From: Lachnospiraceae bacterium 28-4 | GTDB taxonomy: Bacteria > Bacillota > Clostridia > Lachnospirales > Lachnospiraceae | NCBI GenBank assembly: GCA_000403275.2 | Contig: KE159599.1 | Span: 583,391-647,390 of the forward strand | Direction of reading: 5' to 3' | Length of the DNA: 64,000 nt | Shown here: piece by piece, positions 5,532 to 42,174 of the stretch | Numbering within the stretch: position 1 is the first letter of the stretch | How the letters are laid out: each line of letters starts with the position of its first letter | Notes under the pieces: generated by a model | What the model saw: the letters and a program-made list of their open reading frames with translations, nothing else | What the model was told of the DNA's origin: nothing | Database searches by the model: none | Program-made: the position numbers and the translations under genes

Positions 5532-6485
5532 TTACAGTTCCAGTTCTACCGTTCCTTCAAAAACAGTGACCGCCGGCCCTGTCATATAAACCGTATTTTC
5601 TTCCCTATCCCAGCGGATGCGAAGTTCCCCGCCTAATAATTTCACAGTCACTTCTTCCTCCGTCAAACCGTTTAATACGCAGGCCACCGCCGTTGCACAG
5701 GCTCCTGTCCCGCAAGCCAGCGTTTCTCCCGATCCTCTTTCCCACACTCTCATCTGAACCGTATGCCTGTCGATCACTTTTACAAATTCCGTATTCGTCC
5801 TTTTCGGGAACCGTATATGGTTTTCAAAATAAGGGCCGGTCTTTTCTATGGCAAAACCGTCCAAGTCTTCCCCTTCCTGCATAAAAATAACCGCATGAGG
5901 ATTGCCCATCGATACGCAGGTCATCTCATACTCTTTCCCGTCCACTTCGATTTTCTCCGCAATCGCTTCCTCCTGTGCGGAAATGACAGGAACTTCCTCC
6001 GCTCTCAGAACAGGCGCTCCCATATTGACCTTAATGCTTACGGCCTTTCCGTCTTCCACCGTAAGATCGAGATGCTTCACCTGTCCGCAGCTTACGATAC
6101 GGATCGATTTCTCTTCCGTAAGTCCTTTATCATACACGTATTTTGCCACGCTCCGAATCCCGTTCCCGCACATCTCCGCCCTGGAGCCGTCCGCATTGTA
6201 CATCTCCATTTCGAAATCTGCCGTTCCGTCCTCATCGCTGCGCATCCATTCGCCCGGTTTCACTCCCATACCTTCATCCGTTCCCGAAGTTGTATGTAGC
6301 CCCTCTTTTCCAAGGGGATGAATAAAAATAACACCATCCCCCCCAATCCCAAAATGCCTGTCGCTCAACTTCCGTACCAGTTCCGGCTTCTCGCCCTGCG
6401 CTATCGGCACATCGGCACCGTTTATATAAACATAATCATTCCCGCATCCCTGCATTTTTGTAAATTCTATCTTCATATTATCCAT
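5532..6485 (-). CDS. dapF: Diaminopimelate epimerase with inserted segment
   Basis: It isomerises LL-DAP to meso-DAP for lysine and peptidoglycan. Both catalytic cysteines are present: EMCGNGIR (C106) and ACGTGACA (C258). At 317 residues it is longer than the usual about 275, because residues 60-88, between GGDGVIFIHP and DFEMEMYNADG, carry an extra stretch rich in Gly, Thr and acidic residues where most family members have only a few. The start at 6485 lies 20 bases from a consensus promoter. An in-frame ATG at 6476 is an alternative. It is first in an operon with dapL. Confidence 0.93.
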   Translation of the reverse strand: MDNMKIEFTKMQGCGNDYVYINGADVPIAQGEKPELVRKLSDRHFGIGGDGVIFIHPLGKEGLHTTSGTDEGMGVKPGEWMRSDEDGTADFEMEMYNADGSRAEMCGNGIRSVAKYVYDKGLTEEKSIRIVSCGQVKHLDLTVEDGKAVSIKVNMGAPVLRAEEVPVISAQEEAIAEKIEVDGKEYEMTCVSMGNPHAVIFMQEGEDLDGFAIEKTGPYFENHIRFPKRTNTEFVKVIDRHTVQMRVWERGSGETLACGTGACATAVACVLNGLTEEEVTVKLLGGELRIRWDREENTVYMTGPAVTVFEGTVELEL

Positions 6486-6504: not shown

Positions 6505-6533
6505 ATTATAATTTACTCATATTTCCTTGTCAA
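6505..6533 (-). promoter_or_regulatory. Sigma-A promoter of dapF-dapL
   Basis: On the minus strand a perfect TTGACA (6528-6533), a 17-base spacer and a perfect TATAAT (6505-6510) lie directly upstream of dapF, giving a 5' leader of only about 13-22 bases. There is no room for a lysine riboswitch. Confidence 0.88.
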
Positions 6534-6632
6534 TTCACCTTATCAGTTCTTCCCACCCTCACGTATCCCCCAATAATTCAATAACCGTATCTCATTCCAA
6601 ATGAAAAATCAATTCCTGCCCGGCCAGCAGCA

Positions 6633-7026
6633 GCGGAAATCAATATTGTCCGATTGGGCAGCGGGCGGGAAGGGATGGGAAAAAGGGAAAAAAGGGACAG
6701 GAGGCCGCCGGGCGGGAAGGCTGGGCTGGCATATTTTCGCAGCTGCTTTGCGCAGGGAAATGAGATTTTCTTAATATTCCGTTCAAAAAGCAGCAATTTG
6801 GTGACACGGATGTCACCAAAAGCCCGCAATGAGCCCGGATGGCGAATCGCGAGCGATTGCGTCCGGCCGATACCATTTTGCCGGAATATTTAGAAAATCC
6901 ATTTCCCGCAGCCAGCACAAGAAAATATGCCAGCCCAGCCTTCCCGCCCGGCGGCCTCCTGCCCCTTTTTTCCCTTTCTCCCATCCCTTCCCGCCCGCTG
7001 CCCAATCGGACAATATTGATTTCCGC
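6633..7026. repeat. Long palindromic element, family 1 copy A
   Basis: A 394-bp element. The left arm, from 6633, starts GCGGAAATCAATATTGTCC. It is repeated in inverted orientation ending at 7026, with near-perfect complementarity over roughly 140 bp. The arms are purine-rich on the left and pyrimidine-rich on the right. The interior, about 6758-6906, contains GGTGACACGGATGTCACC (a perfect hairpin) and a second stem around AATCGC/GCGATT. The same interior occurs in the copy at 36538-36908, but that copy's arms have a different sequence. ORFs seen on both strands here are products of the palindrome, not genes. It lies between the dapF promoter and the 3' end of a histidine kinase gene. Confidence 0.9.
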
Positions 7027-7049
7027 GCCCCCCCAACCAACCAACCCAA

Positions 7050-7096: not shown

Positions 7097-7102
7097 CCCC
7101 TG

Positions 7103-9430
7103 CTACTTCTCCCAGCTCAATACGATCTTAAACAAATCGCCGTCCACTACAATCTCCATTTTTCCTCCCTGGATCTCCGTAAAGCTTTTCGCAATCGCCA
7201 GACCCAGGCCGCTTCCTTCCGTATTTCTCGAACTATCCCCGCGGACAAACCGTTCTGTCAGTTCTTCCGGATGTACACACAGCTCCACTGCTGACATATT
7301 CCTCAATCCGATCACGACTTTCTTATCCTGATCATCCAGATCCACATAAACCCGGCTCCCTGGCATCGCATATTTGATAATATTGGAATACAGGTTTTCG
7401 AATATACGGTATGTCTTTTCGCTGTCCAGCCTAAGCACCACTTTTTCCTCCGGCATGCGGAAACGGAATATCAGATTAGCATCCTCAATCTTATCCTCAT
7501 ATTCCAAATATACCTGCCGCATCAGATTGCAGATATCCACCTCCATCAGATTCACCGTTACATTCCGGCTGCTCGCCTTGCTGACTTCAAACAGATCCTC
7601 AATCAGCCGTTTCAGCCGCAAAGATTTTTTCTCCAGCACGGCCAGATATTCCTTCCTTTGTTCCTCCGTCACCCCTTCCTCTTTCAGCAGATCGACGTAC
7701 GTCGTGATCGCCGTCAAAGGTGTCTTCAAATCGTGGGACACGTTGGTGATCAACTCCGCCTTCATTCTCTGGCTCTTGACTTCCTCATCCACCGCTTTCC
7801 GAAAACCTTCCTGTATCTTATAAAGTTCATCTTTATAGGATTCAAAGACTCCGAAGTCTTCATCGAACGTCGTGTTCAAATTGCCCTCCGCAATCGAACC
7901 TGTCGCGTCCAGGAGCTGTTGGTACTGATCCTGTATTTTTCTAATATATTTTTTACTGAAAAAGTAAAGGACTATCGAATAAATAATGAGGGCAAACCAT
8001 CCGAAACACCATATACTGCACATAAGCCCAACCAATATAAAATTAATCAGTATCGCCTTATGGAGAGTGATTTTCACATCTCCGTCCAGATTCACATGCA
8101 GCAATTCATCCTTAAATCCCCGCCACAGTTTCCGAAGCCACTTTCCAAACTTTGTGACTGCCCGTACACACAGGCTTCTTTCCTTCAAAAATCCCCGGAT
8201 TCCCAGTGCCGGAACCTCTCCCAACGTATTTACAGCATAGAGCCAGCCGCTGAAAAGAAGGAATAAAGTGCCGAAGTTCAATGCCCCTGTCAATATAGGG
8301 TAGCTTTCCGCCGGAAGAAAAAACAAATATTCGCTCCATATACTGTTATAATATCCCCGGTTGCTATCGCTCACCAGAGTAACCACCACATTTGGAAATG
8401 CCCCGGCAATCATAGCACCCAAAAATATCGTAGCTTCCAAAGGAATCCTTACCGCCTTCGTCCGATGCAGACAATATTTTTTATTCAGCATCAGCAGCAG
8501 CGCAGCAATGGTCAGCATTCCCAGCAGCACCAGGTAGACATCGTATGCCCCTGCCTGAAAATAAGCGTACCATTCATTCCACTCGGTATAAAGCATGCTG
8601 CTCTTTACGATTGCATTCCTTTGTTCCTGGGTCATGGCGTAAATAAAAATCGCATTTTTAGGAGCCTGGAGGGAACAGCTTACTTTTTTCGCCCTCCCCT
8701 CCAAGTCACTGTAGCCGTAGAATTCTTTCCGCCTGACAAAATAACCATTTTCATACATGTAACTGAATTTAGCGGAAAGATCCCGGCTTTTCATTACCGC
8801 CTGAACACTTTTTAACAATTCATCGGAGTTTTTTCCCTTGACCGCCACATGATCCGGATTCCCGGCATTGTCATAAGTCACCATGACATAATAAACATAT
8901 GGAAGTTCTTGCTTTTCGCTGTCGTCTCCTTCCGCCAGCGCTTCAATATTCTTTCCCGTATTTTTTATCAATTCCCCTGTTTCCCTGTCGATCGCACAAT
9001 AATCCATTTGCTGGGCTACCTGGGTTGTCACCTCGTTTTCCCATTCGTCAAAAATCTGGAACAGACGGTTTCGCATTTCATCCGGAAGGCCGTCAATATC
9101 GTTGACCATTTCCCCGTACACGTCCATCCCTTCCTCCATCATATGGATATCCCTGCTCGCTACATATTCCTCCTCGATATCCAGATACAGGTCGTCATAT
9201 CCGTACATCGTTTCATTGGTCTTTTCAGCCAGTTCTTTATATAATACATAATTGCTTATATATAAATATTCAAGAAACGAACCGCTTGACAGGCCGTCTT
9301 TATAATATTTATCCGCCTTGCTTTCAAAAACGGGATACAGCGCCATAAAACCGCCGGCAAACAACGCCGTTATCATACACGCGATCAGCAGACATATCTT
9401 TTTACTGCTTTTCAATTTTATATCCAACAC
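7103..9430 (-). CDS. Sensor histidine kinase, multi-pass membrane
   Basis: A 775-residue sensor kinase. An N-terminal membrane segment (about residues 12-32) is followed by a large extracytoplasmic domain to about residue 300. A cluster of further hydrophobic segments comes next, then a HAMP-like linker (LLDATGSIAEGNLNTTF). The HisKA domain has NVSHDLKTPLTAI (H566), and the HATPase domain includes GSGLGLAIAKSF. It overlaps the 3' end of its response regulator gene by 28 bases, giving an RR-HK operon read leftward. The signal is unknown. The wide, multi-segment membrane part resembles envelope-stress sensors of Lachnospiraceae more than simple two-TM kinases. Confidence 0.92.
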   Translation of the reverse strand: MLDIKLKSSKKICLLIACMITALFAGGFMALYPVFESKADKYYKDGLSSGSFLEYLYISNYVLYKELAEKTNETMYGYDDLYLDIEEEYVASRDIHMMEEGMDVYGEMVNDIDGLPDEMRNRLFQIFDEWENEVTTQVAQQMDYCAIDRETGELIKNTGKNIEALAEGDDSEKQELPYVYYVMVTYDNAGNPDHVAVKGKNSDELLKSVQAVMKSRDLSAKFSYMYENGYFVRRKEFYGYSDLEGRAKKVSCSLQAPKNAIFIYAMTQEQRNAIVKSSMLYTEWNEWYAYFQAGAYDVYLVLLGMLTIAALLLMLNKKYCLHRTKAVRIPLEATIFLGAMIAGAFPNVVVTLVSDSNRGYYNSIWSEYLFFLPAESYPILTGALNFGTLFLLFSGWLYAVNTLGEVPALGIRGFLKERSLCVRAVTKFGKWLRKLWRGFKDELLHVNLDGDVKITLHKAILINFILVGLMCSIWCFGWFALIIYSIVLYFFSKKYIRKIQDQYQQLLDATGSIAEGNLNTTFDEDFGVFESYKDELYKIQEGFRKAVDEEVKSQRMKAELITNVSHDLKTPLTAITTYVDLLKEEGVTEEQRKEYLAVLEKKSLRLKRLIEDLFEVSKASSRNVTVNLMEVDICNLMRQVYLEYEDKIEDANLIFRFRMPEEKVVLRLDSEKTYRIFENLYSNIIKYAMPGSRVYVDLDDQDKKVVIGLRNMSAVELCVHPEELTERFVRGDSSRNTEGSGLGLAIAKSFTEIQGGKMEIVVDGDLFKIVLSWEK

Positions 9431-30067: not shown

Positions 30068-30115
30068 ATATTAGCACTATGGGGGGGATATGTCAATACT
30101 TATCTTATGCGGTCA

Positions 30116-30463
30116 CGGAAGTCAATTTTTATCATCGCCATGGCGGCAGAAGGCCTAAGGGGAGTGCGGCGGCTGGGAAAGGGCTGCGGGGGAGCCGGTT
30201 TTCTGCTGTTGCGTACGATCAGTTATTTCACTTATGAAATGGCCAATAACCAGAGTGAAATCGCCAGGGAGGGCGGTTTCTGGGAGCGTAGGACAGGATG
30301 TCCGTTGCTCCCGGCTCGTTCGGCTGGATGGCATATATCCATTTCATTAGTGAAATCTGATCGGAAGCTCCAGCGGAAAATCGGCTCCCCCGCAGCCCTT
30401 TCCCAGCCGCCGCACTCCCCTTAGGCCTTCTGCCGCCATGGCGATGATAAAAATTGATTTCCG
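30116..30463. repeat. Long palindromic element, family 2 copy B
   Basis: A 348-bp element. The arms 30116-30243 and about 30340-30463 are inverted copies, nearly identical over the outer 90 bp. The outer end reads GGAAATCAATTTTTAT on the right and GGAAGTCAATTTTTAT on the left. Inner arm segments TTTCACTTATGAAATGG and CCATTTCATTAGTGAAA pair with each other. The core (30244-30338) holds a hairpin GGGAGC...GCTCCC enclosing GGACAGGATGTCC. It lies between the divergent starts of cysK and arcC. Confidence 0.9.
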
Positions 30464-30577
30464 CTGGATAATTGCAAAACCGGTAGAAAAATCCACGCCT
30501 GTATGCTAGAATGGATGTCAAAGGAATCGGGGAATGTTTCCTCCCTTACTAAAATTGAAAATACAACAGGTGATGCT

Positions 30578-32537: not shown

Positions 32538-35500
32538 TTACACATCCCATTCTTCCCCTTCTTCCTCCCAGAAATCCTCCCAGAAATCCTCCCAACCGAT
32601 CACCGGCATAGATTTCACATCCAGGCCATGACAGTTTGACAGGGCGCATAACTGTTCGCGAATCACATGGTACTCCTGGATAATATCATCCGCATCTTTC
32701 AAACAAAGACATTCCACCATTTGCCGGAACTGCCGCTGGAAATACCGATTCAGCAAGGCCGAATTTTCCAACAGCCAGGCTGTCATGGGATGATCCTCTG
32801 TAATTCCCCTTCGGAAGAACCGGAAAGCATGGCACATATATTTCCTGCTTTGGTCACTGGCTGCCCTGCAAAACATCATAGGAGGAAAAATATCATACTT
32901 TCCCTTGTCTTCTTCCTCTTTCTTTTTATGAAACATAATGATCTGTCCCTTTTCATAATTTATTGTCATATCATAATGATCTTGTAAATATACCATTGCA
33001 TATTTGTACATCATTTGATGCATACCACTCATATACACCAATAATGCCATCTTATATTTGTCTTCTTTCCTTCCTGCATATTCCTGGTATTCTCTTATAA
33101 TTCCTTTCGCGCAGTCTTTCTGATTCTGCATCATCCATTGCCCTACCGTAGAATTTTGCACCTCCCGCCACCCGGATAAAGTTATAAGGTTCCAATCTGC
33201 CAATTCAAATAAGAATTCTGCGTTATCCGGCATCACATATTTATCCAAAATCCCCCTAATTCCCACAAGAAGATCCAACGGCAGCTTTACTATCTTAGAA
33301 CGGCTGGCCTTCACTGTCGGTTTCCACTTTCCTTCGAGTAAAAACAATTTACAATTCCCGATATCAAGATGATCATATAGTGTTCTGTCCATTACAATAC
33401 CCTGATAGATAACACCCCCGACAATATAATGATTGCCAAAAATAGTATCCCAAATCCCCTCCAAATTCTCATATTTCAACTCACCTAATTCAACCCAAAA
33501 GCTTCTTGTTTTTATATCGTCTCGTCCAACTCTTACATAGCTATCCATATTCTCTGCCTTGCTAATTTCCTCTTGCCTTAGCCAGCATTGGAATATGCAC
33601 TTCGATTTTTCCCCCGGACAGTAAATCTCACCCCCCACTGTATAATTCTTCCCTCCCTCTTCCCAATATAATTTCCTTTCAAAACACACCTCATGCTTCG
33701 CCAGCACGCCCGAAAAACCAGGCAGGACTTGTAGTTCTTCCGTATCCAGCGGTATTACCGTCTGCACCAGCTTGGGATAATTCCCCCTGACAGCAGGAAA
33801 ACAATCATCAAATTTCTTCTTCGTTCTCTGATCCAGCTCATAAACCCTCTCTCCCGCAAGGTCATGGGCGATTTTCATCGCTTCCCTGTAAGTCCTGCCC
33901 ACCCTTTTCTTATTATAATATACGGGCATCCTGGCTCCGCAAAGATATTTACTCACCGTTTCGCGCAAGTTCAAAGCCCCCAGCTTTCCCGGATCCAGCC
34001 GGATCGCGATAGATGTACCCGGTTTTCCCCTGTATCCGCGCCACTCCGAACAGTCTTGTCCTTCTTCTCCAAAAAAATCCGGCCTTGGAAGGTTTCCTCC
34101 TGTCCCATGATTTTCTGCCTGGCTCCTGATCGTATAATATCCTTTTAACCCCGTCACCTGCAGCCGTATGCCATAGTCCGTCCCCCGCGCATGCCCTTCC
34201 GGCATTTCCTCGCGGCGGTTTTTTTCCGGGTCGAAATACAACGTGGAAACTTCCACAAAATCCCCGCACAAAAAACAGGATAAAAAACCGATCCCAAAGC
34301 AGCTGATTCCGTAAAACTCCTCCATCCGCCCGTGATCCCGCAAATCCCTTTTTAACTCCTGCGAAGTGTAGTAGGAATTGCCCACCTTTAAAAAATAACG
34401 CTGCAACATTCCAAGAGTCATCCCGGTTCCATAATCATCGATACGAAACCAAAGCTTTCCCTCCTTATCGCTCCACTCCCAGCAATCGATATGCGACTCC
34501 TCCGGCACAAAGGAAGCATCCATCTCCCCCCGCAGCAGCGTGGCATCAATCGCATTCTGCAGCAGTTCCCTCACGAAAACATCCCGGTCATCATACAGGT
34601 TTTCTCCCATCAGGAGATGCAATATCTGTTCCTGATCCATCGTAAGGCTAAAATCGCCGCCCAGATACCCGTCCGACTCGATCTCCCCGCGGCATACTGC
34701 CCGCGGAAATGGAAATTCCTGCCGCCATCCCGCCCTGCAATACCTCTGCAGCCCGGCACACTGATAGAGTTCCTCATCCACCCAATCCAGAAAATGTCTG
34801 ACCGCATGTTCTATCTCCGGGTTTTTGCAGCGGGCCTTATAAGGCAGCTCTTCTCCGGCAGGAACCGGCGGATAAGAAAAACCTGCCGAAGACTGATGTT
34901 TTTTCCATTCTTCACGGCTCTTTTCATTATATGCGGCATAACTGTAAAGCACTCTCGGCGCACGGGTATCGTCGAAGTCCAGCAGATCGGCCAGACGCAG
35001 CAGCAACGCGCAGAATAACGGATCAGCATCGCTGGCCGCCAGATATTCCAGTTCCCTGTTTATACGAAGCTCCTTCGGCCCCTCTCCATGAGCCTGACAG
35101 ACCGCCAGCACGCACCTTTTCGGAACCGCCCGTACCGGCCAGCTGTCCATTAATTCCATCCATCCTTCATTTTGCAAAACCTCCGATATGCGAAAGGGAT
35201 GCAGCGTGCGGAGATACCACTGCCTCTTATCCTCCGGCCATTCTTCCGACGCGCATCCTAATAGTTCCGGGGCATATTCCCGCAGAAATTCCTGACGGGC
35301 TCTTTCCCTGGAAAAAGCAGACTCCCGCTCCTCATCCGTATACACCATCCCAAGGTCATGCAGACAAGCGGCCAGAATGAGCAGTTCTATTTCCCCTGCC
35401 GACAGCTTTCCGATCCAGTCCCCGAGCAGACCGCCCATAGCATCCAGAACATTTCTTACATGGATTCCGTCATGCAGCGTATAGTTTTTAAAGTCCTGCC

Positions 35501-35636
35501 GCACATCGCCTAAATACGCCACGGCCTCCTCATACACTTTTTTCACCCATGCCATTCTTTCTTCATCCGAAGACATTTTTTCCCGATATGCCCGCCATAG
35601 CGCGGTGCTTTCCAACCCCTGAGAACGTTCTGCCAT
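32538..35636 (-). CDS. HD domain fused to Hsp90-like (GHKL) ATPase
   Basis: A 1032-residue cytoplasmic protein. The N-terminal 230 residues form an HD-type phosphohydrolase-like domain: H55 and H59 in LHDGIHVRNV, HD at 93-94 in CLHDLGMVY, then H146, H183 and D217 (RLADLLDFDD). Residues about 340-620 form an Hsp90/GHKL ATP-binding domain: RELLQNAIDA (E357, N361, D364), IDDYGTGM and GISCFGIGF. The C-terminal 400 residues are unassigned, ending in an acidic, Trp-rich tail with a WEDF repeat. HD plus Hsp90-like fusions are rarely characterised. Similar N-terminal combinations occur in putative stress or anti-phage genes. GGGGAT precedes the start. Confidence 0.8.
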   Translation of the reverse strand: MAERSQGLESTALWRAYREKMSSDEERMAWVKKVYEEAVAYLGDVRQDFKNYTLHDGIHVRNVLDAMGGLLGDWIGKLSAGEIELLILAACLHDLGMVYTDEERESAFSRERARQEFLREYAPELLGCASEEWPEDKRQWYLRTLHPFRISEVLQNEGWMELMDSWPVRAVPKRCVLAVCQAHGEGPKELRINRELEYLAASDADPLFCALLLRLADLLDFDDTRAPRVLYSYAAYNEKSREEWKKHQSSAGFSYPPVPAGEELPYKARCKNPEIEHAVRHFLDWVDEELYQCAGLQRYCRAGWRQEFPFPRAVCRGEIESDGYLGGDFSLTMDQEQILHLLMGENLYDDRDVFVRELLQNAIDATLLRGEMDASFVPEESHIDCWEWSDKEGKLWFRIDDYGTGMTLGMLQRYFLKVGNSYYTSQELKRDLRDHGRMEEFYGISCFGIGFLSCFLCGDFVEVSTLYFDPEKNRREEMPEGHARGTDYGIRLQVTGLKGYYTIRSQAENHGTGGNLPRPDFFGEEGQDCSEWRGYRGKPGTSIAIRLDPGKLGALNLRETVSKYLCGARMPVYYNKKRVGRTYREAMKIAHDLAGERVYELDQRTKKKFDDCFPAVRGNYPKLVQTVIPLDTEELQVLPGFSGVLAKHEVCFERKLYWEEGGKNYTVGGEIYCPGEKSKCIFQCWLRQEEISKAENMDSYVRVGRDDIKTRSFWVELGELKYENLEGIWDTIFGNHYIVGGVIYQGIVMDRTLYDHLDIGNCKLFLLEGKWKPTVKASRSKIVKLPLDLLVGIRGILDKYVMPDNAEFLFELADWNLITLSGWREVQNSTVGQWMMQNQKDCAKGIIREYQEYAGRKEDKYKMALLVYMSGMHQMMYKYAMVYLQDHYDMTINYEKGQIIMFHKKKEEEDKGKYDIFPPMMFCRAASDQSRKYMCHAFRFFRRGITEDHPMTAWLLENSALLNRYFQRQFRQMVECLCLKDADDIIQEYHVIREQLCALSNCHGLDVKSMPVIGWEDFWEDFWEEEGEEWDV

Positions 35637-35990
35637 AATCCCCTGTCCCCTTTATCTTTGTTATTTTCTTTGATTTATGTATACAGCTTTTTTCTTATTA
35701 TAATCCATCACCGGCCAGCCATTCAACCGCTTTCGCCGTAATATATTTTCCTGTTAGGGGATCTAATACGATATGACTTAAAAAAACTTGTCATATCTCC
35801 CCTTCGTTGCAGACATAAAAATCCTCCTGGAACTTTACGTCCGTAGAAAAGTCAGCCAACCAGCCCTCATTCTCAGCACGTTTTACGCAGGTTGAACCTT
35901 AAGGCATTCGTGTGATACCCAGTGGATTGAACGGGCAACGAGTAAATCTGGTATTGACCATTGCTAATACATCTTAAAGGAGTATCTGCT
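35637..35990. other. Intergenic region with gene debris and IS110 left end
   Basis: No intact gene. The minus strand at 35698-35790 can be read as a 30-codon tail ending DPLTGKYITAKAVEWLAG, which looks like the C-terminus of a lost protein I cannot name. From about 35860 to the ATG at 35991 the sequence is the non-coding left end of an IS110-type element, where that family encodes its bridge RNA. I could not fold that RNA by eye. Confidence 0.45.
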
Positions 35991-36193
35991 ATGAACGCTG
36001 TTGGTATTGATGTTTCCAAGGGCAAGAGCACTGTCACCATCCGCAGAGCCGGTGATGTTGTCATCATGCCTCCCCGCGACATCACTCACACACAGTCCGC
36101 TATCAATGACCTGATCGATCTGATACGGGGGCTTGACAGGGAAACGAAAGCCTGTATGGAACACACCGGGAGATACTATAAACCAGTCGCCAT
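35991..36193 (+). pseudogene. IS110-family transposase, 5' fragment
   Basis: Begins MNAVGIDVSKGKSTVTI, the N-terminal catalytic Asp motif (GIDVSK) of DEDD transposases of IS110, then CMEHTGRYYKPVA. GGAG lies upstream of the ATG. After about 68 codons the match stops abruptly and another reading frame with unrelated sequence begins, so most of the DEDD domain and the whole C-terminal serine domain are missing. It is non-functional by itself. Confidence 0.8.
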
Positions 36194-36358
36194 GATGTCC
36201 GTTTTGCCCTCCCGGTCTATGACGAAAATGTGCTTGTCAGATACAATATCTTTCATGCCCGTCTTTTGATTAACCATGCTGAAAATGGCAGGAAATATCT
36301 GTATGATATTCTGGCAGTAAAAAAAGAAACGAGCAAGCCGCAGCAAGATATACGGTGA
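36194..36358 (+). pseudogene. Unrelated C-terminal gene fragment fused after IS110
   Basis: Directly at the IS110 break, in another frame, 54 codons read DVRFALPVYDENVLVRYNIF, then HARLLINHAENGRKYLYDIL, then AVKKETSKPQ before a stop. The composition is that of a real protein C-terminus. It resembles tails of large mobile-element or phage polyvalent proteins in gut Clostridia, but I cannot name it with confidence. It marks a deletion that joined two mobile-element genes. Confidence 0.5.
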
Positions 36359-36537
36359 AAACCCACTTCTTCTGTTCTGTCAATCCCTGATTTTGAATTT
36401 TTCAAAATCACACACTGGCATTTTGATATTTTCATACTTATTTTTCAACCTGTATAAAATTTTCAAGAGTTCTCTAATTTCCGCTTGACTTTCTATTTGC
36501 AGACTACAACTTCTCTGAAATCATGGCGGGGAAGAAG

Positions 36538-36908
36538 GAGGGGGAGGAACCGGGAGGGCGGAATCGGCAGCAGGAGGAGAAGGGTGGCAGGAGGAAGGAG
36601 ACGGTCAGGGGCGAACGGTTCGGGATAGTTTCGCGCTGCTTTGCGGAGGAAAATGAAATTTTCTTAATATTCCGTCCAAAAAACAGCAATTTGGTGACAC
36701 GGATGTCACCAAAAGCCCGCAATGAGCCCGGATGGCGAATCGCGGGCGGTTGCGTCCGGCCGCCACCACTTCGCCGGAATATTTAGAAAATTCATTTCCC
36801 GAAGCCGGCACGCGAAACTATCCCGAACCGTTCGCCCCTGACCGTCTCCTTCCTCCTGCCGCCCTTCTCCTCCTGCTGCCGATTCCGCCCTCCCGGTTCC
36901 TCCCCCTC
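36538..36908. repeat. Long palindromic element, family 1 copy B
   Basis: A 371-bp element. The left arm from GAGGGGGAGGAACCGGGAGG is repeated inverted, ending at 36908, with only a few mismatches over about 110 bp. The interior (about 36650-36800) is nearly the same as in the element at 6633-7026: ATTTTCTTAATATTCCG, GGTGACACGGATGTCACC, AATGAGCCCGGATGGCGAAT, TTTAGAAAAT. The arms, however, do not align with the other copy's arms. It lies between the IS110 debris and the start of the solute-binding protein gene. Confidence 0.9.
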
Positions 36909-37012
36909 AAACAGCCATATGAATTTCTACCTCCCCCCTCTCATCCATATTGCAAATTTTTTCCTAAAATGCTATGATAATTCCAGAAATATTACGATCA
37001 ATGGAGAACGTC

Positions 37013-38278
37013 ATGAAAAGAAAAATCAGCATATTGTTTCCGGCCCTTTTATTGGCCGTATTATTGTCCGGATGCCAAAGCAAAGACTCTGATCCTGTAT
37101 TTTCAACCACAGACAACGAGCAGGAAGCGGAGCGTAACCCTGATTCTGATACGGTCAATCTGACTGTCTGGGGCGCGGAGGAAGATGAAGAACTGCTCCG
37201 CCAGATTATCGACGGATTCCAGGAAGAATACCAAAACCAGGCGAACTTTGCCATAACTTACATGCCGCAGAGCGAAAGCCATTGCACCGACGCCCTGATG
37301 GCGGATCTGGAAAACGGCGCGGATGTATTCGCCTTCGCCGATGATCAGCTGTATACGCTTGTGGCCGCCGGCGCTCTGGAGCCGATAGATAACGCGGAAA
37401 CGATCCGCGCATCGAATCTGCCGGAAGCTGTCCTTGCAGCATCCGTGGACGATACCCTGTACGCCCTGCCTCTCACCGCAGACAACGGGTATTTTCTTTA
37501 TTATAATAAACAATATTTTTCCGAAAAAGATATTACATCCCTGGACCGGATGCTTGATATCGCAGCGGAACAAGAGAAAAAAGTTTCGATGGAATGGTCC
37601 TCCGGATGGTATGTATACTCCCTCTTCGGCAATACCGGGCTCACTGTCGGCCTGAACGACGACGGGATCACCAACTACTGTACCTGGAACAGTACCGAAG
37701 GGGATATTAAGGGAACTGACGTGGCGCGGGCCATGCTGGCTATGGCGGAACATCCCGGCTTTATCAGCACGGACGACGCCGGTTTTCTGGAAGGCGTGAA
37801 AAACGGCACGATCATCGCAGGAGTCAACGGCGTATGGAATGCTGTCGCCGTGGAAGAAGCATGGGGCAGCGGTTTCGGAGCGGCAAAACTTCCCTCTTAC
37901 ACATGTGCCGGACAGCAAGTCCAGATGGCTTCTTTTTCCGGCTATAAATTGATCGGAGTAAACGCCTATTCCAGCCATCCGCAGTGGGCCGCAAAACTTG
38001 CGGAGTGGATCGCAAGCGAAGAAAACCAGGCACTCCGTTTCCAGCTCCGCGGCCAAGGGCCTTCCAATATCCAAGCCGCCGCTTCTGCAGAAGTACAAAG
38101 TTCCCCCGCCATCGCCGCATTGTTGGAACAGTCTGAATTTTCCTGCCTCCAACGCATCGGCGGCAATTTCTGGGAACCTGTCACCACGTTTACCGCCGAT
38201 ATCCTGGCCGGAAATATGAAAGGAAAAAATCTCCAGGAACAGCTTGACATTATGGTAGATGGGATTATCGCGCCATAA
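37013..38278 (+). CDS. Extracellular solute-binding lipoprotein, family 1
   Basis: About 421 residues from MKRKISILFPALLLAVLLSG, with lipobox LLSGC and GGAG six bases upstream of the start. It is a maltose-type (cluster D) binding protein: NLTVWGAEEDEELLRQIIDG, ADVFAFADDQLYTLVAAGAL, ALPLTADNGYFLYYNKQYF, and a C-terminal EWIASEENQALRFQLRGQGP. It probably binds a sugar or oligosaccharide. No permease or ATPase genes follow. Instead a chemoreceptor gene starts 42 bases downstream, which suggests the protein may act as a ligand carrier for taxis or share a distant transporter. Confidence 0.9.
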   Translation: MKRKISILFPALLLAVLLSGCQSKDSDPVFSTTDNEQEAERNPDSDTVNLTVWGAEEDEELLRQIIDGFQEEYQNQANFAITYMPQSESHCTDALMADLENGADVFAFADDQLYTLVAAGALEPIDNAETIRASNLPEAVLAASVDDTLYALPLTADNGYFLYYNKQYFSEKDITSLDRMLDIAAEQEKKVSMEWSSGWYVYSLFGNTGLTVGLNDDGITNYCTWNSTEGDIKGTDVARAMLAMAEHPGFISTDDAGFLEGVKNGTIIAGVNGVWNAVAVEEAWGSGFGAAKLPSYTCAGQQVQMASFSGYKLIGVNAYSSHPQWAAKLAEWIASEENQALRFQLRGQGPSNIQAAASAEVQSSPAIAALLEQSEFSCLQRIGGNFWEPVTTFTADILAGNMKGKNLQEQLDIMVDGIIAP

Positions 38279-38320
38279 TGCCCCCCAATATCAATACCAG
38301 ACATCAAAGGAGTACTCGTT

Positions 38321-39907
38321 ATGATGAAAAATATCAGTTTAAAACATCGTCTGATTATACCGATTGCCCTTCTCGGCATTGTAGCCCTTTTGTCAAACAT
38401 TCTTTCCATCATCAGTATACATAACGTGAACGCAAATGCCTCCAATATCGCCGATAATTATATGGACGGCAAAAGCCGGCTGGCGGAAATCTGCCAGTCC
38501 TCCATGGACATACATAAAATGGCCTTAAGCCACATCGTCGCCACAGATTACGAAACTATGATCTCCCTCGTCCAGCAGATCAAGGAAAAGGAAGCCCTTC
38601 TGGACGATATGCTGGCGGAATACCAAACCCATGTGGTTTCCGAAGATCAGGCAAAATACGATGCCCTCCTGGCAGACTATGCCTCTTTCAAGCACGCGCT
38701 TGTCCACCTGGTCTGCGCCAGCGCCAGCCACAAGACGCAGGACGCCTATGCCCTCGCTAACGGCGACGTGGCCTTATATGCCGACGCCATGGAAAACGAT
38801 ATTGATTCCCTGACCTCTTCTATCAGCGACCAGACTTCCGAAGCCAGAAACCGGCTCTCCACCGTATATCTCATATCCCTGGCTGCCGGCATTACGGCGG
38901 TTATCATCTGTACTTTGCTGGTATTTACGGATTTGAAGCTGATTACGAATTATGTTGTGACTCCCATCAAGAATATCCTGAACACCATCCAGGAAAGTTC
39001 CGGGCGCATCCACCATATGACAAAGGAAGTATTAAAAAGAACGCAAGCATCCAAAGGAAGCGCTGCCGGCCTCTCCTCCCTCGCCGAACAGCTGTCGGCA
39101 TCCATTCAGGAAGTGGCGGGCAATGCGGCCCTGATCAACGATAATACGGGAAGCGTCCGTCTGGATGTCAAGAATATTACAGAAGAATGCGGCGCTATCA
39201 CGGAGTACACCGTCCACATGAACGCCCGCGCAGACGCCATGCAGCAGTCCGCCCAAACCAACGCGGAAGTCACCAGCGCCAAGGCTGCGGAAATCCTCCG
39301 CTCCCTTAACGACGCTATCGAAAAAAGCAAAAGCGTCAACCAGATCAAAACGCTCACCGGAGAGATTCTCGCCATCTCCCAGCAAACCAGGCTGATCGCT
39401 CTTAACGCTTCCGTAGAAGCCGCTAACGCCGGGGAAGCGGGCAGGGGCTTCGCCGTAGTCGCCAGCGAAGTTCGCGATCTTGCGCATTCCAGCCAGGAGA
39501 CCGCCAACCGCATCCAGGAGATTAACGATGTGGTCATTGCCGCCGTATCCAATCTCTCTGAAAATGCCCAATACCTGATCGACTATATGAACCGGTCCGT
39601 CCTCACGGAATTCCAGTCATTCGTACAGTCCGGCAGCCAGTACAAGGAAGACGCCGCTTACATACGCCAGACTATGGATGAATTCCACGAGCAAACCAAA
39701 CGCTTGGAAAATTCCATGTCCGGAATCGCGGACTCCATCTGCGCCATCACAAAAGCTATCGATGAAAGCGCTATCGGCATTACCGGCGTCGCTGACAATA
39801 CCAGAAACCTTGCGGGCGATATGGAGGATATCGCACAACGCATGGGCGTCAACCAGGAAGTCGTGGAAGGGCTGGAGAAGGAAACGATCGTATTCAATAA
39901 TCTATAA
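38321..39907 (+). CDS. Methyl-accepting chemotaxis protein
   Basis: A 528-residue receptor. A transmembrane helix at about residues 10-32 is followed by a four-helix-bundle type extracellular domain to about 180, a second helix at about 181-208, and a HAMP-like linker. The signalling domain has [20 protein letters not shown] and [19 protein letters not shown]. The tip differs from the two other receptors in this window ([16 protein letters not shown], not [16 protein letters not shown]). AAAGGAG is eight bases upstream of the start. It is co-directional with and 42 bases after the solute-binding lipoprotein gene, a probable receptor-ligand pair. Confidence 0.92.
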
Positions 39908-39957
39908 GCAAAAATGTCTGCTGCCAGCCATGGAGCCGCTTCTCACCGATATTTTTT

Positions 39958-41670
39958 TCATCCCTCCGCCAGCACCCGGAAAGTACCCGCAAGATCCAGC
40001 CTCCCGAACCCCCAGGAGCGGTTCGGATATACAATATCCTCGCTGCGCGCCGCTCCCCGCACAAAGTATGCCTTCACTTCCATGCTCTGAGCCAGCACAT
40101 CATTTTCTTCGATCACCGCCCACTGCATAAACTGTGCCGCTCCTCCCGCCGTAATAGCGGCGGCCATACAGGAACCGGTACGCGCTCCCAGCGCCGTCGA
40201 AACATTGACCCCCGGTGCGGCAATATCCGGTTTCAGCCCCCCGCCTCTGGCAAATCCCCTGCCGGAATCGATATAAAAACTATTATTGCCCGCATCATAG
40301 GCGGATACCGTGATCACATTATCTGCCAGGGACGGCTCCGTCAATGTCACATACGGCGTAGAACTCAGGAAATAGACGTCGGTTTTTAAAAACTGGGTAA
40401 TCGGCAGCCACATATTGATATAGCCATAGCCAATACTTCCCCGCATTTCTATTTGAAAAGTCCATACCCCTGCAGTCGGCTGTACGACCCTAAATACCAC
40501 CAGTTCATCGCCGCCGCCCTGTTCTACTAAAATATGATCTACGGCAATCCTCGTTTTTTCATAAATAAAACTGAAATTCCTCGTTTCCCTGCTCCTGAAG
40601 TCAATGTATGGTATGACTTCCCCTCCCGGAGAATGAATCGACACGCTCATCGTATTCGGAACGGTCCCCCATAGTTCCATGACAAAACCCGGCTCTTCAT
40701 CCCCCACGCGAATTTCCGCCGTCTGCATCACCGCAGCGCCTTCCATTGGAAAAAGCCTTTGGAAATGGTGTCCCGCATTGCCCTCGTTTCCGCCGCCCGC
40801 CACGACTACACGGTTCCTCTTTCTGGCGATCCTGTCCAAATATCTTGCCAGCACGGAATTGCCGGCATGGTCTCCCCAGTTTGTCCCCATACCGATACAT
40901 ATGACCACCGGCCTTTCGCTCACTTCCGTAAAGCGATCCAGGTATTTCAATGCCATTCCGATATTCGCATCGCAATAAGCCGGCACGCCGTCCGGTATCA
41001 AATAGTAATCCCTCAAATATTGCTTCGCTTCCTTGCATTTCACCACCACGATATCCGCATCCGGCGCAGCGCCTAAAAAATTCACACCAAACCCCGTATT
41101 GCTCCCCGCCGCCACGCTGGCCATGGCCGTTCCATGGCCGTCCGTATCCGTAGACGGAACCACCGACAACGGATCAGCGCTTCTGATCGCCTCGTTGATC
41201 TGTTCATTGGTATACTCCGTTCCAAAAGAAAATCCATCCGGCGGAGTCCCTTCCTGTATCGTCTGATCCCAGATAGATAATATTCTCGATGTGCCGTCTT
41301 CCCTCTTAAAAACATCTAAATTATAACGAATTCCAGTGCATATAAATCCTATAACCACGCCTTTTCCAGTCAAAGAAAGGGGCGGCCTTTGCACTTCAGC
41401 AATTCCCGATCTTATCAGATTCACCGGATCGTATTCGCCCGCCGGGCCCACGGCCTCCTGCATCAGACCATATAACTTCGGAATCGAATTATAAGTATAT
41501 TTGCTCACGCTGACCGGCATCTGGACGGAACGCCTGAAATACAGTACCGCAAACTCCTCATCAATCATTTCCACGCAGTAATCCATGCCGTCCAGTTCAT
41601 CCCCAACCAGCATAAAGTCAATCAATGCTTCTCCAAAATCTTCGGACAATATCTGCTCTCTGCACGCCAT
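39958..41670 (-). CDS. S8 (Csp-like) pseudoprotease, Asp and Ser to Cys
   Basis: A 570-residue subtilase of the Clostridia CspB/C-like group, with no signal peptide. The fold is clear: GKGVVIGFICTGIRYNL, SRILSIWDQT, DTDGHGTAMASVAAG, VAGGGNEGNAG, LKPDIAAPGVNVSTALG. The catalytic Asp position (normally DTGI) is Cys111 (ICTGI), and the catalytic Ser position (normally GTSMAAA) is Cys501 (GSCMAAA). Only His179 of the triad remains. Both codons (TGC, TGT) are unambiguous. Related CspA and CspC of Clostridioides are pseudoproteases in spore-germination signalling. Here a regulatory rather than proteolytic role is likely. Confidence 0.85.
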   Translation of the reverse strand: MACREQILSEDFGEALIDFMLVGDELDGMDYCVEMIDEEFAVLYFRRSVQMPVSVSKYTYNSIPKLYGLMQEAVGPAGEYDPVNLIRSGIAEVQRPPLSLTGKGVVIGFICTGIRYNLDVFKREDGTSRILSIWDQTIQEGTPPDGFSFGTEYTNEQINEAIRSADPLSVVPSTDTDGHGTAMASVAAGSNTGFGVNFLGAAPDADIVVVKCKEAKQYLRDYYLIPDGVPAYCDANIGMALKYLDRFTEVSERPVVICIGMGTNWGDHAGNSVLARYLDRIARKRNRVVVAGGGNEGNAGHHFQRLFPMEGAAVMQTAEIRVGDEEPGFVMELWGTVPNTMSVSIHSPGGEVIPYIDFRSRETRNFSFIYEKTRIAVDHILVEQGGGDELVVFRVVQPTAGVWTFQIEMRGSIGYGYINMWLPITQFLKTDVYFLSSTPYVTLTEPSLADNVITVSAYDAGNNSFYIDSGRGFARGGGLKPDIAAPGVNVSTALGARTGSCMAAAITAGGAAQFMQWAVIEENDVLAQSMEVKAYFVRGAARSEDIVYPNRSWGFGRLDLAGTFRVLAEG

Positions 41671-41753: not shown

Positions 41754-42102
41754 GGAAAGATCAATTTTCATAAACGCCGTGACGGAGGGAAGCTAAAGGA
41801 AGCAAAAGCAGCCGGGAAAGGGGCGGACGGAGAGCCGGTTTTCTGCTGTTGCATACAATCAGTAATTTCACTTATGAAATGGTCGATAATCAGAGTGAAA
41901 TCGCCAGGACGGCGGTTTCAGGAAGCATAAGGCATGGATGCCGTTGCTTCCGACTCGTTCGGTTTTATCATGTTACCCATTTCATTAGTGAAATCTGATT
42001 GGAAGCTCCAGCTGAAAACCGGCCCTCCGTCCGCCCCTTTCCCGGCTGCTTTTGCTTCCTTTAGCTTCCCTCCGCCACGGCGTTTATAAAAATTGATTTC
42101 CC
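41754..42102. repeat. Long palindromic element, family 2 copy C
   Basis: A 349-bp element with arms at 41754-41882 and about 41978-42102. The ends read AGATCAATTTTCATAAACGCC and, on the other side in reverse, GAAATCAATTTTTATAAACG. The arms are near-perfect inverted copies (GGAGGGAAGCTAAAGGAAGC on the left matches the right arm), yet differ at many positions from copy B. The core hairpin GGAAGC...GCTTCC encloses GGCATGGATGCC, where copy B has GGGAGC...GCTCCC and GGACAGGATGTCC. It lies between the divergent starts of the S8 gene and the response regulator. Confidence 0.9.
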
Positions 42103-42174
42103 TGGTCTTTACAGCAATTTTAATGTTTTTTTCATCTAATCCGTGTATACTTATAAAAGGGAGGTTTGTATGAT

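Follow-up and report, generated by a model that had tools for sequence, protein, structure and literature searches.

How can the two arms of a long palindrome stay almost perfectly complementary to each other while they differ from the arms of another copy of the same element? The question is raised by the locus at 6633–7026 of a 64-kb window (the whole stretch of DNA analysed here, 64,000 nucleotides), which the initial annotation described as a pair of near-perfect inverted arms around an inner core shared with a second copy at 36538–36908. Both descriptions were borne out. In copy 1, which runs from end motif to end motif (6632–7027, plus strand, length 396; end motifs 13/16 and 14/16), the arms 6633–6738 and 6921–7026 show 98% complementarity across 106 nt; the end at 6635, GGAAATCAATATT, agrees with the consensus CACGGAAATCMATTTT. 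In copy 2 (36538–36908, plus strand), the arms 36538–36635 and 36811–36908 are 99% complementary over 98 nt, and the outer end motif looks decayed when judged by eye. The inner cores of copies 1 and 2 match each other, and a scan with all Rfam models identified both as the TwoAYGGAY RNA (RF01731), at 6748–6914 (plus strand, 112.6 bits) and at 36641–36807 (113.8 bits), respectively.

Four copies are present in the window, rather than the two first reported. Copy 3 (e49; 41760–42104, plus strand, from the start of the left arm to the right end motif, CAGGGAAATCAATTTT) contains an RF01731 core at 41849–42008 (81.5 bits) and arms of 89 pairs, 85 of them Watson-Crick. Copy 4 (30114–30465, plus strand, with end motifs) is 93% complementary between arms 30116–30222 and 30357–30463; a scan of the full window at the gathering threshold did not list it, and it was found via its end motif and arms and then confirmed with Rfam (core at 30209–30370, 69.8 bits). 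The four copies thus score 69.8–113.8 bits, compared with a gathering score of 43. Clustering of the cores defined two subfamilies, with copies 1 and 2 in subfamily A and copies 3 and 4 in subfamily B.

In the genome that contains the window (G000; 4.28 Mb, 7 contigs), 62 RF01731 matches were obtained, a count that rests on the 150 of 166 first-look candidates that were scored. Outside this list, BLAST or the end motif revealed no fewer than nine additional full cores, plus truncated ones. The nearest relative among the searched genomes (G004), which we take to be the MAG Lachnospiraceae S10_Bin3, has 53 matches and shares 82–88% nucleotide identity with G000 across long matches. The family was detected in 14 of the 41 genomes searched, belonging to 3 of 26 genera. 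Its core consists of two hairpins with GGA loops, and the GGA is invariant in both loops of 24 sequences. Two-sided changes were seen at 27 of the 30 predicted core pairs, in at least one of the 24 sequences. In the inner hairpins of the core, G-U pairs outnumber A-C mismatches by 31 to 9 in 38 pairs (p = 7e-4); these pairs were hand-picked from the predicted structure in related sequences, and the ratio is 12 vs. 6 when they are counted as column types. Over all core stems the counts were 90 vs. 36 in subfamily A, where 43 of the 90 G-U come from one conserved U-G pair, and 63 vs. 33 in subfamily B. With a G-U excess in its hairpins, covariation and invariant GGA loops, the core behaves as a structured RNA.

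For every match, starting at the core and moving outward, the left flank was aligned to the reverse-complemented right flank. Complementary arms of 31–150 bp surround the core in 61 of the 62 matches of G000, and the remaining one has 11 bp. In G004, the arms of 49 of the 53 matches were analysed (four partial or contig-edge matches were omitted), which brings both genomes together to 111 elements. Arm self-identity has a median of 0.967, ranging from 0.79 to perfect, with 11 of 103 elements perfect. Among all arms, the closest one is the element's own partner in 100 of the 102 elements with strong arms, in agreement with the earlier claim that arms match their partner and not other copies, and the nearest non-partner arm has a median identity of 0.73 in subfamily A and 0.66 in subfamily B (maximum 0.89). 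The outer arms had also been called entirely different between copies. This holds for their middles, which are not conserved, but copies have in common their terminal ~16 bp (CACGGAAATCMATTTT) and a few core-adjacent bases, and the closest pairs of arms are up to 89% alike. The initial annotation was right that simple decay would not produce such a pattern.

One way to account for matched arms is that they form one long functional RNA stem, in which selection maintains the pairing by way of compensatory mutations. In favour of this view are the covariation and hairpin G-U excess (31 vs. 9) of the RNA core and the fold of the whole element 6633–7026, which as RNA reaches −302 kcal/mol vs. a shuffle mean of −138 (sd 6.6, n = 100; z = −25). 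Selection for RNA pairing should, however, favour G-U over A-C, and the arm mismatches comprise 186 G-U, 190 A-C and 103 transversions in 103 of the 111 elements (eight with fewer than 50 arm pairs were omitted). The same balance was observed in each genome (106 vs. 111 in G000 and 81 vs. 81 in G004). In addition, the arms of orthologous copies are more diverged than their flanks, whereas compensatory evolution ought to be slow. These data suggest that (i) pairing as RNA is not what preserves the arms, because G-U is no commoner than A-C among their mismatches; and (ii) a DNA-level process keeps the partners matched. A long functional RNA stem was rejected for the arms on the G-U count, and we regard it as very unlikely. 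The earlier suggestion of a structured RNA extended by a long double-stranded stem thus survives for the core, which is RF01731 with 27/30 pairs covarying, and fails for the arms. Perfect covariation along a long stem need not imply RNA function, and a comparison of G-U with A-C mismatches can separate RNA-held from DNA-copied stems.

The ends of the element point to mobility. An exact 13-mer of the end motif, GGAAATCMATTTT, has 24 + 26 = 50 matches in the genome, compared with none for the reversed control, and CACGGAAATCMATTTT is present at both ends, at 12/16 or better, in 56 of the 111 elements. The length between end motifs is about 310–460 bp. Outside the end motifs, bases are repeated at a lag of 9, with an identity of 0.587 vs. 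0.254 between different elements and 0.23–0.32 at the remaining lags within 4 to 15; this analysis omitted the 55 of 111 elements without two recognisable ends, and the strictest cut retained n = 23. Because the terminal repeats are shared and accompanied by 9-bp target-site duplications, the element looks mobile, a MITE-like palindrome with a structured-RNA core. No ORF of at least 100 aa spans any of the 62 copies of G000. The neighbouring genes, by simple ORF calling at the 62 sites, are divergent at 21, tandem at 34, convergent at 5 and undetermined at 2, and no bias of core orientation was found at the tandem-gene sites (16 vs. 18). Among ten loci queried in G004, a clean empty site was not found: the e17 and e57 sites have contiguous flanks but also end-like scars, and remnants are present at the e40 and e51 sites.

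If the element transposes, its arms could be equalised solely at that moment, through a folded single-stranded or hairpin intermediate, and decay afterwards. Copies of mixed ages would then give a spread of arm identities, and the observed range, from perfect (11/103) to 0.79, is of this kind. The duplications of the same elements provide a comparison. Among the 23 elements whose end motifs reach 14/16 and whose duplication reaches 5/9, differences were counted at 38 of 207 duplication sites and at 82 of 2295 arm sites (p = 2e-14); the comparison presumes that arms are perfect at insertion, so that both pairs start identical. Decay of the duplications is thus about fivefold that of the arms beside them. 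Without the 5/9 filter (30 elements), the counts were 80 of 270 and 114 of 3010, with the duplication more diverged in 27 of the 30, and some of the low duplication scores may reflect misplaced ends. Equalisation at transposition alone predicts that arm identity drops as the duplication decays, but no correlation was found in the 23 elements (Spearman −0.01), and the median arm identity was 0.973 with duplications of 8–9/9 and 0.968 with duplications of 5–6/9.

Insertions shared by the two genomes bear on the same point. Eleven sites are occupied in both G000 and G004, ten of them single/single and one a pair vs. a single element. At e56/h31 and e53/h25, arm similarity exceeds that of 99.6% and 97.9%, respectively, of 967 random pairs taken across the two genomes, and the cores are mutual second-best and best. 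Since these copies separated, their arms have accumulated 26 paired vs. 5 one-armed substitutions at e56/h31 and 19 paired vs. 4 one-armed at e53/h25 (45 vs. 9 together), and indels are mirrored on both arms. Such paired changes postdate the species split and argue against equalisation only at transposition, which we consider improbable. At the remaining 8 of the 10 single/single sites, arm similarity does not exceed that of random pairs, and the two genomes differ even in subfamily at e13/h41; for these reasons re-insertion (at preferred sites) or replacement probably also occurs at shared sites. The core is reversed relative to its flanks at e56/h31 and e15/h23 (2 of the 10 single/single sites), one of which has homologous arms, as expected when inverted arms exchange. 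Element e39, with 15 differences within one arm, does not fit arm homogenisation. Homogenisation may need long arms, because L036 and L048 (two copies with ~33-bp arms, found in relatives) have mismatches in common, as seen by eye.

Alternatively, every insertion might build its arms by snap-back copying of local target sequence. Such an origin would explain why the arms of e18, e38, e40 and e43 run beyond the shared end with locus-specific complementary sequence. It does not explain the outer ends and inner arm bases common to copies, nor a purine-rich inward strand in 101 of 103 arms (G000 and G004 together; in 24 loci of 12 other genomes this richness is not general, at 0.33–0.75). Shared ends and a purine-rich inward strand show that the arms do not consist of random target DNA, and local snap-back copying is the least credible of the origins considered here, close to negligible. 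The initial annotation had raised a mobile element that makes a fresh copy of an arm at each locus. The ends and the 9-bp duplications fit the mobile part of that idea; the fresh copy per locus does not agree with shared ends, or with arms that changed together in place at two orthologous insertions.

We consider it probable that the element is a MITE-like non-autonomous transposable palindrome that carries the TwoAYGGAY RNA as its loop, and that its arms are homogenised in place by arm-to-arm DNA copying. Copies would be moved by a DDE-type transposase supplied in trans, and after insertion their arms would mutate roughly neutrally. One arm would repeatedly be copied onto the other, either by replication template switching or by recombination (gene conversion) between the inverted arms. 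Because this copying repeats, each element would remain self-complementary while the elements drift apart, and the core would sometimes be flipped. Selection acting on the core as an RNA would preserve the asymmetric fold of the core.

No autonomous partner with matching ends was found near single ends or among ISLre2 and IS256 loci. ISLre2 elements generate 9-bp duplications. The ISLre2 and IS256 loci are without the element ends, their best scores being 12–13 of 16 and not paired around the gene. In five single-end-motif loci, whose ORFs were read by eye rather than by a Pfam scan, no recognisable transposase was seen. Only one gene-bearing copy with matching ends turned up (L212, C1:190011–191940 of G000); here a DDE-type insertion sequence with a 440-aa PF01609 transposase interrupts a hairpin of a subfamily B core, and inspection by eye suggests a ~10-bp duplication in the hairpin loop. 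It was rejected as the autonomous partner: with its own inner ends and the ~10-bp duplication, it is an insertion sequence that struck an element. The exact 21-base end pattern had no match in IMG/VR, the subfamily B core none in plasmids and the subfamily A core none in phages.

Homogenisation of inverted-repeat arms is known from Y-chromosome palindromes. The initial annotation's statement that no described class behaves in this way was too strong, since arm homogenisation with spacer inversion is described for short repeats in yeast genes and for RNA genes, where it occurs by template switching (PMC8604942, PMC8794818). In nematomorph mitochondria, long perfect repeats are described as evolving in concert (PMC6649704). 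As in our element, partner arms there remain identical while their sequence changes, and spacers invert; here, in contrast, a single bacterial mobile element is involved, in more than 100 dispersed copies that each carry a clock of their own. Under the template-switch model of PMC8794818, G-C and U-A pairs should be in excess, a composition that the purine-rich inward strand fits only partly, with more G than C but likewise more A than T.

Bacterial MITEs, to judge from the available text of PMC10969869, are likewise short and without an ORF, with many intergenic copies, terminal inverted repeats and a target duplication of fixed length. Unlike them, the element has an inverted repeat that spans nearly its whole length, with arms of ~100 bp and a conserved RNA as loop; its arm middles vary between copies yet match within one, and its parent transposon was not found. 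REP and REPIN sequences (PMC3733652, PMC3116915) are also dispersed intergenic palindromes. Their length is 20–40 bp, and a RAYT transposase serves them. The element is about ten times longer and has a 9-bp duplication, and by its size it would not be classed with them.

The core is the same as that of the TwoAYGGAY RNA, with two GGA-loop hairpins and scores far above the cut-off. The 168-position model stops at the base of the arms, and in the text consulted palindromic arms, terminal repeats and target duplications are not described. TwoAYGGAY is presented in PMC2864571 as probably an RNA and not cis-regulatory, at odds with its Rfam type, Cis-reg, and PMC4333381 proposes that it binds CsrA. 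CsrA is present in 11 of the 14 genomes with the RNA and in 17 of the 27 without it. In the literature searched, subscription papers and bioRxiv aside and some sources being available in part, TwoAYGGAY (RF01731) is not described as a mobile palindrome. Arm-to-arm copying is thus a known process, and the element that carries it was not previously described in the literature found; what is new is a MITE-like element that combines a structured-RNA core with homogenised arms. A candidate regulatory RNA of Rfam would then be, in these genomes, the loop of an apparent mobile element, and its copy number and conservation would need a different reading. Some 100 bacterial palindromes also constitute a natural experiment: in many of them a 9-bp duplication that escapes correction can serve as a clock for the corrected arms next to it, so that one could measure how fast, and by what mechanism, one arm is copied onto the other.

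Arm copying leaves unexplained the purine-rich inward strand and the strict divergence of close pairs. When two RF01731 cores lie less than 500 bp apart, they are divergent (minus then plus) in 14 of 14 pairs from two genera, as counted in the match lists of 14 genomes, with unlisted copies left out; within 1500 bp, there are 16 divergent pairs, one convergent and one same-strand. Five of the divergent pairs are in G000 (C1:1031191/1031554, C1:1195130/1195564, C2:131313/131680, C3:333495/333827 and C3:653045/653430), and the other nine are in G004, G005, G012 and G023. Inverted duplication was rejected as their origin, because 2 of the 11 pairs inspected mix subfamilies A and B. It is conceivable, though doubtful, that the transposable palindrome spreads a regulatory RNA domain whose copies act as decoys for a protein that binds GGA loops, CsrA for example, and that the divergent pairs are functional double units; TwoAYGGAY would then be a mobile genome-wide RNA sponge. 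If so, the arms would be a disposable, self-repairing DNA scaffold, and the divergent double unit would be served from a shared centre.

Copy 1 has as neighbours a diaminopimelate epimerase gene (5532–6485, minus strand; PF01678, E 2e-59) and a sensor histidine kinase gene (7103–9430, minus strand; PF00512 and PF02518). A promoter-like site, TTGACA-17-TATAAT, is found at 6533–6505 on the minus strand ahead of the epimerase gene, and a terminator-like hairpin at 7097–7062 on the minus strand past the kinase gene; copy 1 is situated between the two. On contig C98 of G004 (L144), which is without an RF01731 match, the blocks that flank the copy at 36538 (window 34005–40011) are in exchanged order. 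Subfamilies A and B both keep a T-T mismatch at one and the same position in the inner stem, where CTTA faces TTAG (for example at 6764–6781 and 6882–6899 of the window), and it persists although the arms outside it are homogenised. A shortened copy of ~218 bp (L184, C1:459227–459444 of G000), in which a single arm, together with half the core (subfamily A), is joined directly to the other end motif, looks as if it was made by deletion within the palindrome.
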